Under the pieces are notes generated by a model. It was not told the DNA's origin. It worked only from the letters and a program-made list of their open reading frames with translations, and searched no databases. The position numbers and the translations under genes were made by a program. DNA of 39,426 bases from Synechococcus sp. SP2 MAG (GTDB lineage Bacteria; Cyanobacteriota; Cyanobacteriia; PCC-6307; Cyanobiaceae): assembly GCA_030756895.1 (NCBI GenBank), contig JAVBIX010000004.1, positions 1-39,426 of the forward strand, written 5' to 3'. Of this stretch, positions 30,963 to 36,363 are shown one piece after another; the stretch's first letter is position 1; every line of letters starts with the position of its first letter.

Positions 30963-31226
30963 ATGAGTGGTGAGCGCGTAGGTTTCCGCTTCAAACACGC
31001 CGATGCGGTGGTCAAGCGCAATCCGCAGGGGCGGTCCCGTCGCGGATGGGTGATGGAGCCAGTGGAGCAGACCACGAGCCGAGGCACCAAAATGCCTGCT
31101 TATCGCATCCGCTGGCGTGACAGTGAGCGTCCTGAGATTGTGCTTCAGCACATGCTGATTGCTGATCCAGACCCCACTCCTCCGCCTGAAAATGTGAGCC
31201 TCGAGCCACCCGCACCCAAGGCTTGA
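30963..31226 (+). CDS. Small basic conserved-type protein of unknown function
   Basis: An 87-residue protein I cannot place in a named family. It is basic in its first two-thirds (RVGFRFKHADAVVKRNPQGRSRRG, YRIRWRDSERPEIVLQHML) and ends in a Pro-rich acidic tail. The alternation of charged and hydrophobic residues suggests a small beta-barrel, of a kind found in translation- or nucleic-acid-associated proteins, but this is a guess. It follows lysS by 45 bases, and its coding strand agrees. Its end nearly meets the coiled-coil gene on the other strand (22 bases apart). Confidence 0.65.
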   Translation: MSGERVGFRFKHADAVVKRNPQGRSRRGWVMEPVEQTTSRGTKMPAYRIRWRDSERPEIVLQHMLIADPDPTPPPENVSLEPPAPKA

Positions 31227-31248: not shown

Positions 31249-31734
31249 TCAGCTGAGGCCTTGATTGCGCCTCAGCTCTTCCAGCTCTTGTTGTGCTTCG
31301 AATAGGGCCCAATCCTCATCAAGGCTTCGCCTGGAGGAGGATTGCTGCTCTTGAGTTTTAAGGCTGTTGAGCTGCGCTTCGAGTTCGGCGAATTGAAGGC
31401 CAAGGGCCTCGAACTCCTCCCAGAGCTCGCGGCCCTGCTGCATCAGACCAACAACGTGCTGATCCGCCCGTTGCGCGAGTTCAAGGGCGCCAGCCTTACG
31501 TGCTTTCTCGCCCCGCTTTGTCCAGGCTTGGACCTGTTCGGCGAGGGTGAGCAGTTGACGGCGTAATTCCCTCGCTTGGAGTTGCTGCTGCCCGCGACGA
31601 TTATGAAGATCCCTTTGGCGGTCTTGAAGATGCTGTTCGCGCAGCAATTGATCTTGGCTGGGATTGCTGCTTAAAAACTGTTCAAGCCGTTCTTCCAGGC
31701 TGCGTTCGAGGTTGTCCAGCCAGGTGGGACTCAT
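31249..31734 (-). CDS. Coiled-coil protein of the hercynine cluster
   Basis: 161-residue protein, almost wholly helical and rich in Gln, Glu, Arg and Leu, predicted to form a long coiled coil (about residues 20-135). I associate it with the cyanobacterial family usually labelled hercynine metabolism protein, from its start (WLDNLERSLEERLEQFLSSNP) and its position; no biochemical role is established to my knowledge. It is the last gene of the egtB-egtD operon: its ATG overlaps the stop of the small protein by four bases. Possible roles are a scaffold or membrane-peripheral organiser. There is no signal peptide or membrane helix. Confidence 0.8.
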   Translation of the reverse strand: MSPTWLDNLERSLEERLEQFLSSNPSQDQLLREQHLQDRQRDLHNRRGQQQLQARELRRQLLTLAEQVQAWTKRGEKARKAGALELAQRADQHVVGLMQQGRELWEEFEALGLQFAELEAQLNSLKTQEQQSSSRRSLDEDWALFEAQQELEELRRNQGLS

Positions 31735-31964
31735 TGGATCGGATCCGGTGCGCTCGTGATCAATGGAGCTTCGATTTCTTGCTCCAGCGGATTGATCGCA
31801 CCTTCCCGTGAACGGAGCAACAGCTGGGTGAGACGGGCCACTGAGCCCTCTCCGAGCTCAAGGGCGCCCAAGCGATCGAAGGCGTTGCGGTACACCGTTT
31901 CCAGCTCTTCGATCAGGGTCTCTCGTTGTAAACGGACTGTGGCCCGTTGCTCGTCGCGACTCAT
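31731..31964 (-). CDS. Small protein of the hercynine cluster
   Basis: 77-residue helical protein (MSRDEQRATVRLQRETLIEELETVYRNAFDRLG), no membrane segment. Its size and position after egtD match the family often called hercynine metabolism small protein; its biochemical function is unknown to me. It lies 31 bases after the egtD stop and overlaps the next gene's start by four bases, so it is translated together with the coiled-coil protein and may bind it. A role as chaperone, adaptor or regulator for EgtB/EgtD is only conjecture. Confidence 0.78.
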   Translation of the reverse strand: MSRDEQRATVRLQRETLIEELETVYRNAFDRLGALELGEGSVARLTQLLLRSREGAINPLEQEIEAPLITSAPDPIQ

Positions 31965-31995
31965 GGCTCAGCAGGGATGAAGGTCTAGATCTCAC

Positions 31996-32976
31996 TCAGT
32001 CTGTGGGTTCTAAGAGATGTAAGGAAAGATCGTCATCTGGATCATGCCAGCGGCGCACCCAGCGCCATCCGGCCAGTTGAGCTAAGGCAACAGCCCGTTC
32101 AGGGCTGTATTTGACGCTGTATTCGGTGATCAGTGGTTCATCGCACCTGAAGGTCCAACGGTCATCGGCAATTCTGATCACTTGGTCGCAGCTGCTGATC
32201 AAGGCCATCTGCACCCGCTGTTGGTCGGCTTGCCAACGCGCTTGGTATTGGAAGCATTGGGGGTCAAAATTCGCTCCTAAATCGGCATTGAGGCGATGCA
32301 GCAAGTTGCGTGCGAAAGCGGCTGAGATGCCAGCGGCATCGTTGTAGGCCGCTTCGAGGCGGACCTCACTTTTGGGTTGGTCCAGACCAAGCAGGAGAGG
32401 TCCCCCCTTCAGCAACTGCTTGAAATGGCGGAGCAGGTGGACGGCATCGTGCTGCTCAAAATTGCCGAGCGAGCTGCCAGGAAAGAAACCGATGCGGCGT
32501 TGGTTGCGCAGCAATGGGTGCTCAGGCACTGCTGTAAGCGTGCTGTGATCGCAGCAAATTCCCAGCATTGGCACCTCTGGATGGCGTTGCTGCAGAGCTG
32601 TGGTGGCTTTGCCTAGATGCTCCGCACTGATGTCGAGGGCTACGTAGGCGGCGGGATGGATCGCGTTGAGAAGAGGGCCTACTTTTTGGGCGCTGCCAGC
32701 ACCGAATTCAACGATCACACCCTCACCAATGGCAGCCGCTATCTCGGCGGCACATGATTTGAGCAGAGCAATTTCGGTGCGGGTGAGGCTGTATTCGGGT
32801 TGTTCACAGATGCGATCGAACAGGCGTGAACCCTCCTCGTCATAAAGAAACCAGGCCGGGAGTTGGCGGGGACAACGGTTGAGCCCGATCCGCACGAGCT
32901 GTTCCATATCCGCTGCTGGCGGATGGAGGTCGATCAGTTCGGGTTTTTGATCGGTCTGTTGAGAGGTGGTGGTCAT
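31996..32976 (-). CDS. egtD: L-histidine N-alpha-methyltransferase EgtD
   Basis: Trimethylates histidine at its alpha-amino group, using three S-adenosylmethionine, to give hercynine. Family residues known from the mycobacterial enzyme can be aligned: Tyr45 in FLYDEEGSRLFDRI, the methyl-donor site EFGAGSAQK (90-98), Asn172 in GSSLGN, Tyr211 in AYNDAAG and the Glu285-x-Ser287 pair in TEYSVKY. All are present, so the enzyme should be active. 326 residues is normal length. Its ATG overlaps the egtB stop (ATGA). The S-adenosylhomocysteine it produces is recycled by AhcY, encoded in this window. Confidence 0.96.
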   Translation of the reverse strand: MTTTSQQTDQKPELIDLHPPAADMEQLVRIGLNRCPRQLPAWFLYDEEGSRLFDRICEQPEYSLTRTEIALLKSCAAEIAAAIGEGVIVEFGAGSAQKVGPLLNAIHPAAYVALDISAEHLGKATTALQQRHPEVPMLGICCDHSTLTAVPEHPLLRNQRRIGFFPGSSLGNFEQHDAVHLLRHFKQLLKGGPLLLGLDQPKSEVRLEAAYNDAAGISAAFARNLLHRLNADLGANFDPQCFQYQARWQADQQRVQMALISSCDQVIRIADDRWTFRCDEPLITEYSVKYSPERAVALAQLAGWRWVRRWHDPDDDLSLHLLEPTD

Positions 32977-34211
32977 CGGGCCAAGCGCAGGCCAGCCGCC
33001 ATCCAGCGGCTAGAGGGGGCAAAAAAATTGCGGTAGGTGTTGCGGGCATGTCCCTCTGGGGTGAGGTGGCTGCTGCCCCGCAACACAAATTGGGAGGTCA
33101 TGAATTTGCCGTTGTACTCGCCCACAGCTCCTTGAGCTGGTTGAAATCCCGGATAGGGCCTGTAAGGACTCGCGGTCCATTGCCAAAGCTCAGCATGGCT
33201 TTGCTTGAGCTGCAGCCCTTGCTCTTGAGCGGCCATTTCCCATTCGGCTTCCGTTGGTAAGCGGGCTCCAGCCCAGCGGGCATAGGCATCTGCTTCAAAC
33301 CAGCTGAGATGACGCACCGGGCGATGGGCCTCTAGCGGACAGCGGCCGGCCAGGGTGAACTCCCAGGCCCAGGCTGGCTGCTCACCACAGCGCGCTTGGC
33401 GCCAGTAACGCGGTGCCTTCCACTGCCGCTCTGTGCGAATAGCCCAGCCTTCACTCATCCAGAGTTCGGGGCGCTCATAGCCGCCATCCTCGATAAAAGC
33501 CCTGTAGTCGCCGTTGCTCACTAAGCGATCCGCCAGGGCATAGGGCTCGAGCCAAACGCGATGCCGTGGTTCCTCGTTGTCGAAGTGGAAGGGCTGGGCG
33601 TTGGTGTTGTTGTTTTCTTGGATGTCCTGGCCGATCTCCACCAGACCCCCCGCACACTGCAGCCAAACGGGAGCTGACTGGTCCTTCGCTGACCCGTGGT
33701 TAAGAGGCGATTCGGGCTCCTGCCAATCCATTCGATACGCCGGTTCCAAGGGCTGACGGCTGAAGGCATCGAGAAGATCCATCAACATCAACTCTTGATG
33801 CTGTTGCTCGTGCTGAAGGCCCAGTTCCACGAGCTCTAACCAGGGGGACTCTCCATTGCGTTGGAGCAGGTCTTCCAGGGCCTGGTTCACCTTGTGCCGC
33901 CAAGCGATCACCTCCTGCATCGGTGGCCTGCTGAGCAAGCCCCGTTGCGGTCTGGGTTGCCGCGGGCCAACCGCTTCGTAATAGGAGTTGAACAGATAGT
34001 TCCAACGGGGATCTGCCCCTTCGTAATCAGGGCAATGGGGGATCAGAACAAAGGTTTCAAAAAACCAGGTGGTATGTGCGAGATGCCATTTGGGGGGGCT
34101 CGCATCGGCCATGCCCTGGAGGCAGAGGTCTTCGGCTTCAAGCGGCTCAATCAATACTTCGCTGGTGCGGCGCACGTCCATCAGCCGGCTGAGCAGCGTG
34201 CCGGAGTCCAT
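32973..34211 (-). CDS. egtB: EgtB-type non-heme iron sulfoxide synthase
   Basis: Iron enzyme that oxidatively couples hercynine with a thiol (gamma-glutamylcysteine or cysteine) in ergothioneine synthesis. The N-terminal DinB-like four-helix domain carries the three iron ligands: His46 in WHLAHTTW, and His134 and His138 in LQHEQQHQEL. The C-terminal formylglycine-generating-enzyme-like domain (from about residue 180) has VEIGQD, WFEADAYARWAGARLPTEAEWE and the end VLRGSSHLTPEGHARNTYRNFF. 412 residues is typical. Which thiol it takes cannot be decided by eye. It is the first gene of the hercynine operon and diverges from the kinase-like gene over 97 bases. Confidence 0.95.
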   Translation of the reverse strand: MDSGTLLSRLMDVRRTSEVLIEPLEAEDLCLQGMADASPPKWHLAHTTWFFETFVLIPHCPDYEGADPRWNYLFNSYYEAVGPRQPRPQRGLLSRPPMQEVIAWRHKVNQALEDLLQRNGESPWLELVELGLQHEQQHQELMLMDLLDAFSRQPLEPAYRMDWQEPESPLNHGSAKDQSAPVWLQCAGGLVEIGQDIQENNNTNAQPFHFDNEEPRHRVWLEPYALADRLVSNGDYRAFIEDGGYERPELWMSEGWAIRTERQWKAPRYWRQARCGEQPAWAWEFTLAGRCPLEAHRPVRHLSWFEADAYARWAGARLPTEAEWEMAAQEQGLQLKQSHAELWQWTASPYRPYPGFQPAQGAVGEYNGKFMTSQFVLRGSSHLTPEGHARNTYRNFFAPSSRWMAAGLRLAR

Positions 34212-34308: not shown

Positions 34309-36363
34309 GTGATCGGCACGCTGCTGGCTGAGCGCTACCGCTTGGATCAATGTCTGACGTCAGACATGTCCGCACCCCAGGGAAAGCTTTGGCGTGGCAC
34401 CGATGTGTTGGCCTCCGATGCGCCAGTGGCACTGCGGCAGCTTCAAGATCCCGAGGCGCAAGACCGGTTTCGCCAGCTGTGGCCGGCGATGCAATCGGTG
34501 CTTCACCCGCTGATTCCACGATTCGGAGGACTGCTGGAGGACTTGGATTCGCTCTGGCTGGTGAGGGAGTGGCAGGAAGGATCCAGCTTTGGGCAAATCC
34601 AGCAGCAGCGGCGTGAGCGTCAGCTCGTGTTTGGTGGCGGCGAAGTGTTGTTGTTGTTGCGCCAGCTCCTCCCCGTGTTGGGCGTTCTCCATGGCAAGGG
34701 ACTGGTCCATGGCGATATCAATCCCAGCAACCTTCTTCGCCGTGATCAGGATGGGTTGCCGGTTTTGCTGGATTTTGGCCTGCTTCAAAACCTGGGAACC
34801 GCGCCGCTCCTAGGAGCCACGGCCAGCTATGCCCCGAGGGGGCAAGGCCGCGGCGAGATGGCCGCGCCATGGATGGATTTGCATGCTTTCGGCGTGACCG
34901 CATTGACCTTGCTGAGCGGACGGGCGCCTGAGGCCTTGCTGCCTGCCGATGCCAGCGAATGGCCATGTCCCCCAGACCTCGAGATCCATGAAGGCTTCCG
35001 CGAGGTGTTGGAACGGATGCTGAGTGAGGTGCCAGGTCGTCGTTTTGAGCAGGCCGGGGAGGTTTTGCAGGCCTTGAAAGTGGTTCCTATGCCTGAATCG
35101 ACCGGGCCGATGCCGAGTTCGGCCCGAACCGTTGTGCTCGCTCCTGTGGTGCTGGCCTCTGCGCAACTCCCTGCCGCCCTTCCGCAGGCTGTTGGCTCGC
35201 CTTCCCCTCAGCCTCGCCGGCGTCAGCGCGCCGATGAACGGCAAGTGGCCGCGGAAGGGCGGCTATGGCCCGTGGTGATTGCCCTGTTGTTGTCGGCTGT
35301 CGTGGGCACAGCCATCGGCTGGTTCCTTCTCAGCCGCGGCAACGCTCCGTCTGGTGTTCCATCCACCGACCGTGATGTGGTGGGCCGCTCGCCGACGGCC
35401 AGCCTCCCGCCTGCAGAGGTGGATCAGCGTCAACAACTTCTCAGTCGGCTGAGGGCTCTGCAGGTGGACCGCAGCTGGTTCTTGGAGCTTGTGGATGCCA
35501 GCTTGTTGGCCCGTTTCCCGGAGCGAAGCGGTCGCTTGCCCAGTGATTCCCTGGAGGATGCACCCCTGCGACAGGTTTGGAACGAGCTAGCCAATGAGTG
35601 GTTAGCAAGGGTGGAGCAGTTGCCTCCAGGGTTGCGCAGTCGACTGGGGACACTTGATCCGAAAGATTGGCAAACCCAGCGTCAGGCCCTTCTTGCGCAG
35701 GGTGTGAATGACAGGGTGGTGGAACAGATGGTCTCCGTGGCGTCCAACACCCTGTTGCCGGGTGTGGCCTCTGGGACCAAGCCACCTGAACCGTTCCGGC
35801 AGCTTTGGTTTGCGGCTGCCTTGCGCAGTCTGGAGGAGGTCAAGATTGAAACGGTGAAGGCCGGAGCTGAGATGGCCACCGTGCTGTCCAGTCGGGTACC
35901 AGCCGATAGCGCGCGCCTGATTTCCATTCAGGTTCCACCCAACCGTCGGCTGGTGCTCGGCATTAACGGAACACCATTGATGCAGATGACCGTCTATGCC
36001 TCTGACGGCTCTGTGGCCGCCGAACGGGGGCCTTTGCGAGTGGTCACCCTGGCGGCTGATGTGGGCACGCCTGTGCAGGTGCTCGTGACCAATGAAGGTG
36101 TCGCCTCTGGTCTGCTGACCTTGTCTTGTCGCGCTGACCTGCCGATCACGAATCCTGCACCGAAAGCAGTGCCGAAACCGCTGCCAAGGGTGGATCGCAA
36201 TCCGATTGCCGATCCGGCGACTGGAGCGCAGGGACCGGTGGAGGCGTTGCCAGAACCTCCTGGCCCGAAGCCTGCAGGTGTGAGGGAGGAGGTGTCCCAA
36301 GAGCCATCTGCCCCAGAGCAAGCCGTCCAAGAACCATCCTCCGCAGGGTTGGGCAGTCAGTAG
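34309..36363 (+). CDS. Degenerate serine/threonine-kinase-like membrane protein
   Basis: 684-residue protein with an N-terminal kinase-like domain (about 5-260). The catalytic-loop [10 protein letters not shown] (Asp136, Asn138) and a DFG (Asp155) are kept, but there is no Gly-rich loop, and the VAIK-type Lys is Arg43 in VALRQLQ, so ATP binding is doubtful. A Pro-rich, basic linker leads to one membrane helix (about 320-341), then an extracytoplasmic region: a helical part (about 370-500), a beta-rich domain (about 520-620, [20 protein letters not shown]) and a Pro-rich tail. Start GTG at 34309. The gene is divergent from egtB. Function unknown; a sensor or pseudokinase scaffold is possible. 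Confidence 0.8.

Follow-up and report, generated by a model that had tools for sequence, protein, structure and literature searches.

Separable parts of a picocyanobacterial egtB-egtD gene unit, one of them a probable remote relative of PspA/Vipp1

We analyzed a 39,426-nucleotide stretch of DNA from Synechococcus sp. SP2 MAG (assembly GCA_030756895.1, contig JAVBIX010000004.1, positions 1 to 39,426; the whole stretch is called the window below), in which egtB and egtD share one minus-strand gene run with two small genes, here called small77 and cc161 after the lengths of their products in residues. In our view this unit is likely to be an operon of picocyanobacteria in which three parts, egtB-egtD, cc161, and small77, are each under selection of their own. 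The gene order is conserved, the parts are separable across related genomes, the small genes are under purifying selection, and cc161 is homologous to the cyanobacterial protein family TIGR04376. A relationship of cc161 to PspA is also supported.

The operon and both small families are already known. small77 matches the NCBIfam model TIGR04374 (small_w_EgtBD; 126.8 bits, cut-off 70) and cc161 matches TIGR04375 (cyano_w_EgtBD; 210.7 bits, cut-off 125), and NCBI annotation calls both "hercynine metabolism" families. A text search of the literature collection available to us for this phrase or for the TIGR accessions found no paper, and the names themselves suggest that they were based on gene neighborhood. 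An earlier reading of the window from its sequence alone (the sequence-only reading) had described two conserved, uncharacterized partner proteins; they are indeed conserved and no chemistry is assigned to them, but models for both families already exist. As far as our searches show, what is new is the evidence against the label and the placement of cc161 and TIGR04376 near PspA/Vipp1.

Separability of small77, cc161, and egtBD

We searched 151 genomes of the family with profiles for small77 (TIGR04374), cc161 (TIGR04375), EgtD (TIGR03438), and EgtB (TIGR03440). Counted as family hits before any inspection of linkage, small77, cc161, and egt genes occur together in 80 of the 151 genomes, small77 and cc161 without egt in 18, small77 alone in 18, small77 with egt in 2, cc161 alone in 4, egt alone in 2, and none of them in 27; both genomes with egt alone (G122 and G148) stop at contig edges. 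TIGR04374 has a hit in 118 of the 151, and 36 of these 118 lack egtB/egtD. We count 28 rather than 36 egtBD-less genomes as keeping small77, because 8 of the 36 carry an unlinked copy only. An unlinked copy is the sole small77-family hit in G031, G032, G065, G074, G078, G094, G098, G104, and G159. A cc161 hit in G033 (E 8.5e-5) falls at the site of a weak, nearly full-length TIGR04376 match like those at Vipp1 loci, and it was not counted for cc161 because it is most likely Vipp1.

Linked small77 is present in 109 of the 151 genomes and, as read from coordinates, adjoins cc161 in 93 of these 109. Twenty-eight of the 151 have linked small77 and no egtB or egtD match anywhere in the genome; half of them (14/28) are at least 90% complete, and 7 of these 14 are assembled as a single contig. 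At all 28 loci, small77 lies between smpB and the gene for an 87-residue protein, X87, that also flanks the unit in the window. One such genome, G180 (one contig, 99% complete), retains the last 29 codons of egtD directly before an intact small77-cc161 pair, and two genomes of the same genus as G180 (G034 and G113) hold the full unit.

Separation also occurs in the other direction. Among 31 genomes of the same genus as the window, its own included, seven have egtD and an adjacent cc161 with no small77 at the locus (G001, G002, G011, G016, G017, G022, and G024; sequence checked in five). At the G078 locus, egtB-egtD stands without small77 or cc161 beside it, and the egtBD unit of G132 lacks cc161.

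Further loci came from genome contigs fetched with X87 as query, which gave 401 loci, of which 80 named ones were retained; the named loci and the 151 family genomes overlap in part, and their counts are not additive. The order cc161, small77, egt genes is kept in 52 of the 80 (2 of the 52 end at a contig edge before egtB), which rules out a chance arrangement. Fifty-one of the 80 extend to smpB: 32 hold the full unit, 6 lack small77, 5 have small77-cc161 without egt, 4 have small77 alone, 3 have cc161 alone, and 1 lacks cc161. Among the named loci, that of Synechococcus WH7803 (L205) holds the full unit, and those of Prochlorococcus sp. AG-363-J23 (L201) and AG-409-P01 (L231) lack egtBD. In Vulcanococcus limneticus LL (L264), small77 and cc161 are present, with no trace of egtBD before the kinase-like gene that follows the unit; its contig ends before smpB, and its egtBD state is read from this locus alone.

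egtBD, linked small77, and cc161 can combine in seven ways if at least one is present; all seven were found, two of them in one genome each, and we therefore rejected an obligate four-protein complex. The sequence-only reading had taken the two small proteins as a hercynine-metabolism set with EgtB and EgtD, possibly in a complex, and had named their absence from egtBD, or lack of linkage to it, in related genomes as evidence to the contrary. Such genomes exist (28/151 and 7/31), and separability in both directions leaves the set and an obligate complex alike unsupported.

A less strict version would make small77 and cc161 accessory factors of EgtB and EgtD (a scaffold, a regulator, or a handler of iron or substrate) whose retention after loss of egtBD would be due to a second role. 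The genes share one run with 4-base overlaps, and the co-occurrence is strong enough to weigh against separately selected parts: both small genes are present in 80 of the 84 family genomes that carry egt genes (Fisher p 2e-11 for small77 and 4e-17 for cc161, uncorrected for relatedness and paralog hits). We nevertheless think accessory factors unlikely, since egtD persists without linked small77 in the seven same-genus genomes, and egtBD is kept in G132, which lacks cc161, and at the G078 locus, which lacks both small genes. The cc161 homolog TIGR04376 also argues against such a role. No egtB or egtD was found near TIGR04376 in 20 loci (up to 7 kb on each side), and TIGR04376 is present in three of the four genomes that lack EgtD among 23 cyanobacterial genomes outside the family; a named Synechococcus elongatus control likewise has TIGR04376 over cut-off and no EgtD match. 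Given the strong association, the small genes may still have a facultative role in the pathway.

The public "hercynine metabolism" label for both families is therefore, we argue, misleading. A family of this pathway would be expected to be found where egtBD is and nowhere else, and small77 departs from this in both directions. The label is unsupported and unearned because both small genes are kept without egtBD and egtBD is kept without linked small77.

Tree and selection

A LysS tree built from 61 loci requires at least 9 changes in egtBD, 8 in linked small77, and 5 in cc161. The 27 family genomes that lack all three units are not in the tree, which is therefore silent on the frequency of joint loss.

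The small genes occupy the place that egtBD holds in relatives, as would be expected if they had been left behind, as neutral remnants, when a hercynine system was lost. Among 14 small77 pairs from clades without egtBD, one is saturated, and the other 13 have a ratio of nonsynonymous to synonymous substitution rates (dN/dS) of 0.12-0.32, values that are rough since dS exceeds 1 in all of these pairs; for cc161 the ratio is 0.26 in one egtBD-less pair. Comparison of G180 with two sisters gave 0.03-0.14 for small77 and 0.08-0.10 for cc161. Pairs that carry egtBD gave 0.03-0.22 for small77 and 0.11-0.14 for cc161, with one more cc161 pair saturated. Purifying selection acts on the small genes without the pathway in the clades tested. 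We rejected neutral remnants because of these ratios and give the idea hardly any credence; moreover, small77 is kept in 28 genomes, 25 of which have assemblies below 2 Mb.

Relationship of cc161 to TIGR04376 and PspA/Vipp1

Of the 23 cyanobacterial genomes from outside the family, 22 have a TIGR04376 match over cut-off. None of 37 family genomes has one (0/37), and the stronger of their sub-cut-off matches are cc161. The window cc161 itself matches TIGR04376 at 55.3 bits over about 125 aligned residues. Profile hidden Markov models (HMMs) of the groups were run at E<0.001 on the real sequences and on reversed and shuffled versions as controls. The cc161 HMM matches 20/20 TIGR04376 proteins and the TIGR04376 HMM matches 48/48 cc161 proteins, with 0 matches among controls; the TIGR04376 proteins had been chosen from their loci by the cc161 model, which makes this comparison slightly circular. 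The homology of cc161 and TIGR04376 is clear at the level of sequence.

TIGR04376 in turn is likely homologous to Vipp1, judging by profile matches. Its HMM matches 9 of 12 Vipp1 proteins (best 2.4e-8) and none of the controls, and the reverse search matches 3 of 20. The TIGR04376 model aligns with Vipp1 loci over positions 2-180 of 189 in many genomes (E 1e-5 to 1e-3), and the two share an MGLF-type start. For cc161, the PspA_IM30 family model PF04012 matches 7 of 48 orthologs at E<=0.01 (best 3.6e-6), the most of any Pfam model, and a genome search with PF04012 finds seven cc161 loci of the genus (E 6.8e-6 to 7e-4).

The predicted fold points the same way. The AlphaFold2 model of cc161 has helices at residues 3-23, 25-80, 84-135, and 138-157 with a mean predicted local distance difference test score (pLDDT) of 84.7, reaching block values of 93-98 over residues 41-120. 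In a Foldseek search with this model, every one of the first 14 hits is a chain of Vipp1, PspA, or ESCRT-III, a single superfamily (E 0.022-0.29), and VIA-align pairs cc161 residues 1-136 with residues 1-136 of Vipp1 (8qbs).

Several results weigh against this relationship and would be explained if cc161 were a generic coiled coil whose likeness to PspA/Vipp1 is a convergence of helical hairpins. The window cc161 scores 10.3 bits against a PF04012 gathering score of 33.9, and we exclude it from PF04012 membership because it misses that cut-off. Eleven other Pfam models weakly match some cc161 orthologs (CENPH 6/48). Comparison of cc161 with Vipp1 by hhalign gave probabilities of 0.7% and 1.4%, the first alignment in an unexpected register and the deeper one in the expected register without significance. 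In direct HMM searches between cc161 and Vipp1, 0/12 and 1/48 sequences match at E<0.001. A cc161 profile searched against all PDB sequences returned three chains at E<=10, and neither Vipp1 nor PspA was among them. In the structural comparisons, no Foldseek match reaches E <=0.001, the VIA-align Z near 11-12.5 is similar to that of unrelated helical hairpins, and the model has a first-helix pLDDT near 70 and a predicted template modeling score of 0.60. We still regard convergence as rather improbable, given the TIGR04376 matches to Vipp1 without any reversed or shuffled match, the near-full-length alignment with its common start, and the uniform top 14 of the Foldseek ranking. cc161 is thus probably a remote PspA/Vipp1 relative, connected through TIGR04376 and the predicted fold, and it may act like a PspA-type scaffold.

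The best PDB sequence match of cc161, a 145-residue chain listed as lysozyme, was rejected; no stretch of it passes alone. PspA paralogs are reported to occur as adjacent or fused genes in cyanobacteria (PMC11237479), and the passages of PMC11237479 and PMC13051332 available to us make no mention of TIGR04376 or TIGR04375. Two side observations concern these families. In 13 of 20 loci of several cyanobacteria, TIGR04376 is adjoined upstream by a gene of the kind found at L317:7812-9230 (minus strand, 472 aa), whose product has a C-terminal T2SSC-like match (28.7 bits, cut-off 27). The proteins of L183, L187, L188, and L189 match the hairpin-tip stretch of PspA_IM30 in their second half, and their first half we take to be LRAT/NlpC-like.

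EgtB, EgtD, and the remainder of the pathway

EgtB scores 506.8 bits against TIGR03440 (cut-off 360) and EgtD 361.9 bits against TIGR03438 (cut-off 290.9), with PF10017 also matched; EgtD aligns with the solved EgtD 4uy5 at E 5e-51. The closest structures to EgtB are the Cabther EgtB chains 8qf6, 6qki, and 6o6l (E ~1e-117), compared with 6e-31 for mycobacterial 4x8b. In the alignment with 4x8b, H46, H134, and H138 sit in W-x-L-A-H and HE-x-QH motifs and are presumably the iron ligands. EgtD has Y45, Y62, N172, Y211, E285, and S287, all of which we take to be equivalents of the mycobacterial substrate pocket. The sequence-only reading had reported both sets of residues, and they are present.

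That reading had also noted the lack of egtC and egtE, which extends well beyond the window. A profile search for EgtC found no match in the source genome and none over cut-off in 37 family genomes (0/37), compared with 12 of the 23 cyanobacteria outside the family. This absence fits a Cabther-type, cysteine-using EgtB, as we presume Cabther-type EgtB uses free cysteine. From its nearest relative and its histidine triad, the window EgtB is probably of the cysteine type, cysteine use itself being a prediction. For EgtE (TIGR04343), 0 of 151 family genomes exceed the 400-bit cut-off, with a best score of 110.6; the model also gives weak matches in all 14 control genomes. The last step would therefore be carried out by a general pyridoxal phosphate (PLP) enzyme, or the product would be a different one. 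The selenoneine enzyme SenA was considered as an identity for EgtB and rejected (332.9 bits, cut-off 420).

Structure and paralogs of small77

AlphaFold2 predicts small77 as a two-helix hairpin (helices 3-34 and 39-65, mean pLDDT 87.9). Searches for solved relatives returned none that was convincing (Foldseek best E 1.4, PDB sequence best E 0.16). Weak homologs occur in five genomes of the class outside the family, two of them of one genus, and in the named S. elongatus control.

A tree of the small77 family (FastTree; few columns, with long-branch warnings) places the linked copies in one clade and every sole unlinked copy outside it. A YG motif is found in the unlinked copy of eight of the nine genomes that have an unlinked copy only, G031 being the one without it. 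Short small77 paralogs with an N-terminal YG motif are also found in the window's own genome, at C13:18036-18200, C14:2559-2729, and C53:4121-4291 (L084, L089, and L105).

Organization of the locus

The source genome comprises 2.22 Mb in 88 contigs. As the sequence-only reading had stated, the four genes form a minus-strand unit with two 4-base overlaps, and the coordinates and both ATGA overlaps were verified in the sequence (Table 1). The gap between egtD and small77 is 31 bases.

Table 1. Coordinates, in the window, of the egtB-egtD unit, its overlaps, and two neighboring genes.
Feature	Position	Strand	Length	Assignment or basis
egtB	32973..34211	-	412 aa	sulfoxide synthase, nearest Cabther EgtB; TIGR03440
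egtD	31996..32976	-	326 aa	histidine N-alpha-methyltransferase; TIGR03438, PF10017, PDB 4uy5
small77	31731..31964	-	77 aa	TIGR04374 family; predicted two-helix hairpin
cc161	31249..31734	-	161 aa	TIGR04375 family; predicted helical hairpin, PspA/Vipp1-like
ATGA overlap, egtB stop/egtD start	32973..32976	-		sequence check
ATGA overlap, small77 stop/cc161 start	31731..31734	-		sequence check
X87	30963..31226	+	87 aa	between lysS and cc161
kinase-like gene	34309..36363	+		divergent from egtB

Before cc161, the window holds plus-strand genes for a substrate-binding protein, rpaB, lysS, and X87, in that order; beyond egtB follow the kinase-like gene (+), smpB (-), ruvB (+), and a TPR-like gene (+). 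The labels substrate-binding protein, smpB, ruvB, and TPR-like are ones we assume for these neighbors.

X87 is extremely conserved for a protein without a name: every examined locus that holds it has a copy 91-100% identical to that of the window, where LysS ranges over 71-98% and SmpB over 64-99%. It has no Pfam or NCBIfam match, and its best PDB sequence match has E 0.19. The kinase-like gene is absent or partial by tblastn at most egtBD-less loci.

Proposed roles and comparison with known systems

The unit would be read as a single transcript, and the biochemical roles that we propose for its parts are conditional throughout. The products of EgtD and EgtB would be hercynine and hercynylcysteine sulfoxide; free cysteine is probably used, and ergothioneine could be completed by a general PLP enzyme. 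Within the family, cc161 would replace the near-universal cyanobacterial TIGR04376 protein; its predicted architecture starts with an amphipathic helix, continues with a long hairpin of helices, and ends in a short tail, and the protein most likely assembles with itself or acts as a scaffold on membranes or close to them. small77 is probably translationally coupled to cc161 and may bind it, and each of the two is also found without the other. Judged by gene content, both would be dispensable for hercynine chemistry, and they may share an operon with egtBD perhaps because both functions are wanted under photo-oxidative stress.

A broader proposal, which we offer tentatively as a possibility on the less likely side, is that TIGR04376 and picocyanobacterial TIGR04375 form a further cyanobacterial ESCRT-III-like lineage beside Vipp1/PspA, marked by an acidic first helix, and that in Synechococcus one operon has come to unite this lineage with a two-helix partner and the synthesis of ergothioneine, thereby coupling the upkeep of membranes to the supply of a thiol antioxidant. 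If true, cyanobacteria would possess a further ESCRT-III-like protein. The comparison also provides a lead for TIGR04376, which 22 of the 23 non-family cyanobacteria sampled possess: its fold is probably PspA/Vipp1-like, and its first helix carries the opposite charge.

Among known systems, the window EgtB resembles Cabther EgtB (6o6l, 6qki, and 8qf6) in a full-length match that includes a common YNGKFM segment. TIGR04376, to which no function is assigned, differs from cc161 in its greater length (189 model positions) and in scoring over cut-off only outside the family. cc161 resembles PspA/IM30 (Vipp1) of the ESCRT-III superfamily in its predicted alpha1-3 hairpin, with a turn near residue 82, and differs in its shorter C-terminus. 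The clearest difference lies in the first helix, which in cc161 is amphipathic (moment 0.50) and acidic, with a median net charge of -2 (range -4 to 2, n=48), and so lacks the basic charge of a Vipp1-like helix; TIGR04376 proteins have a median of -3 (n=7, those of the 20 that start with MGLF). In contrast, the first helix of Vipp1 has a median net charge of +2 (n=12). The acidic charge suggests that the first helix of cc161 would contact protein or another surface, unlike that of Vipp1, which contacts anionic lipid.

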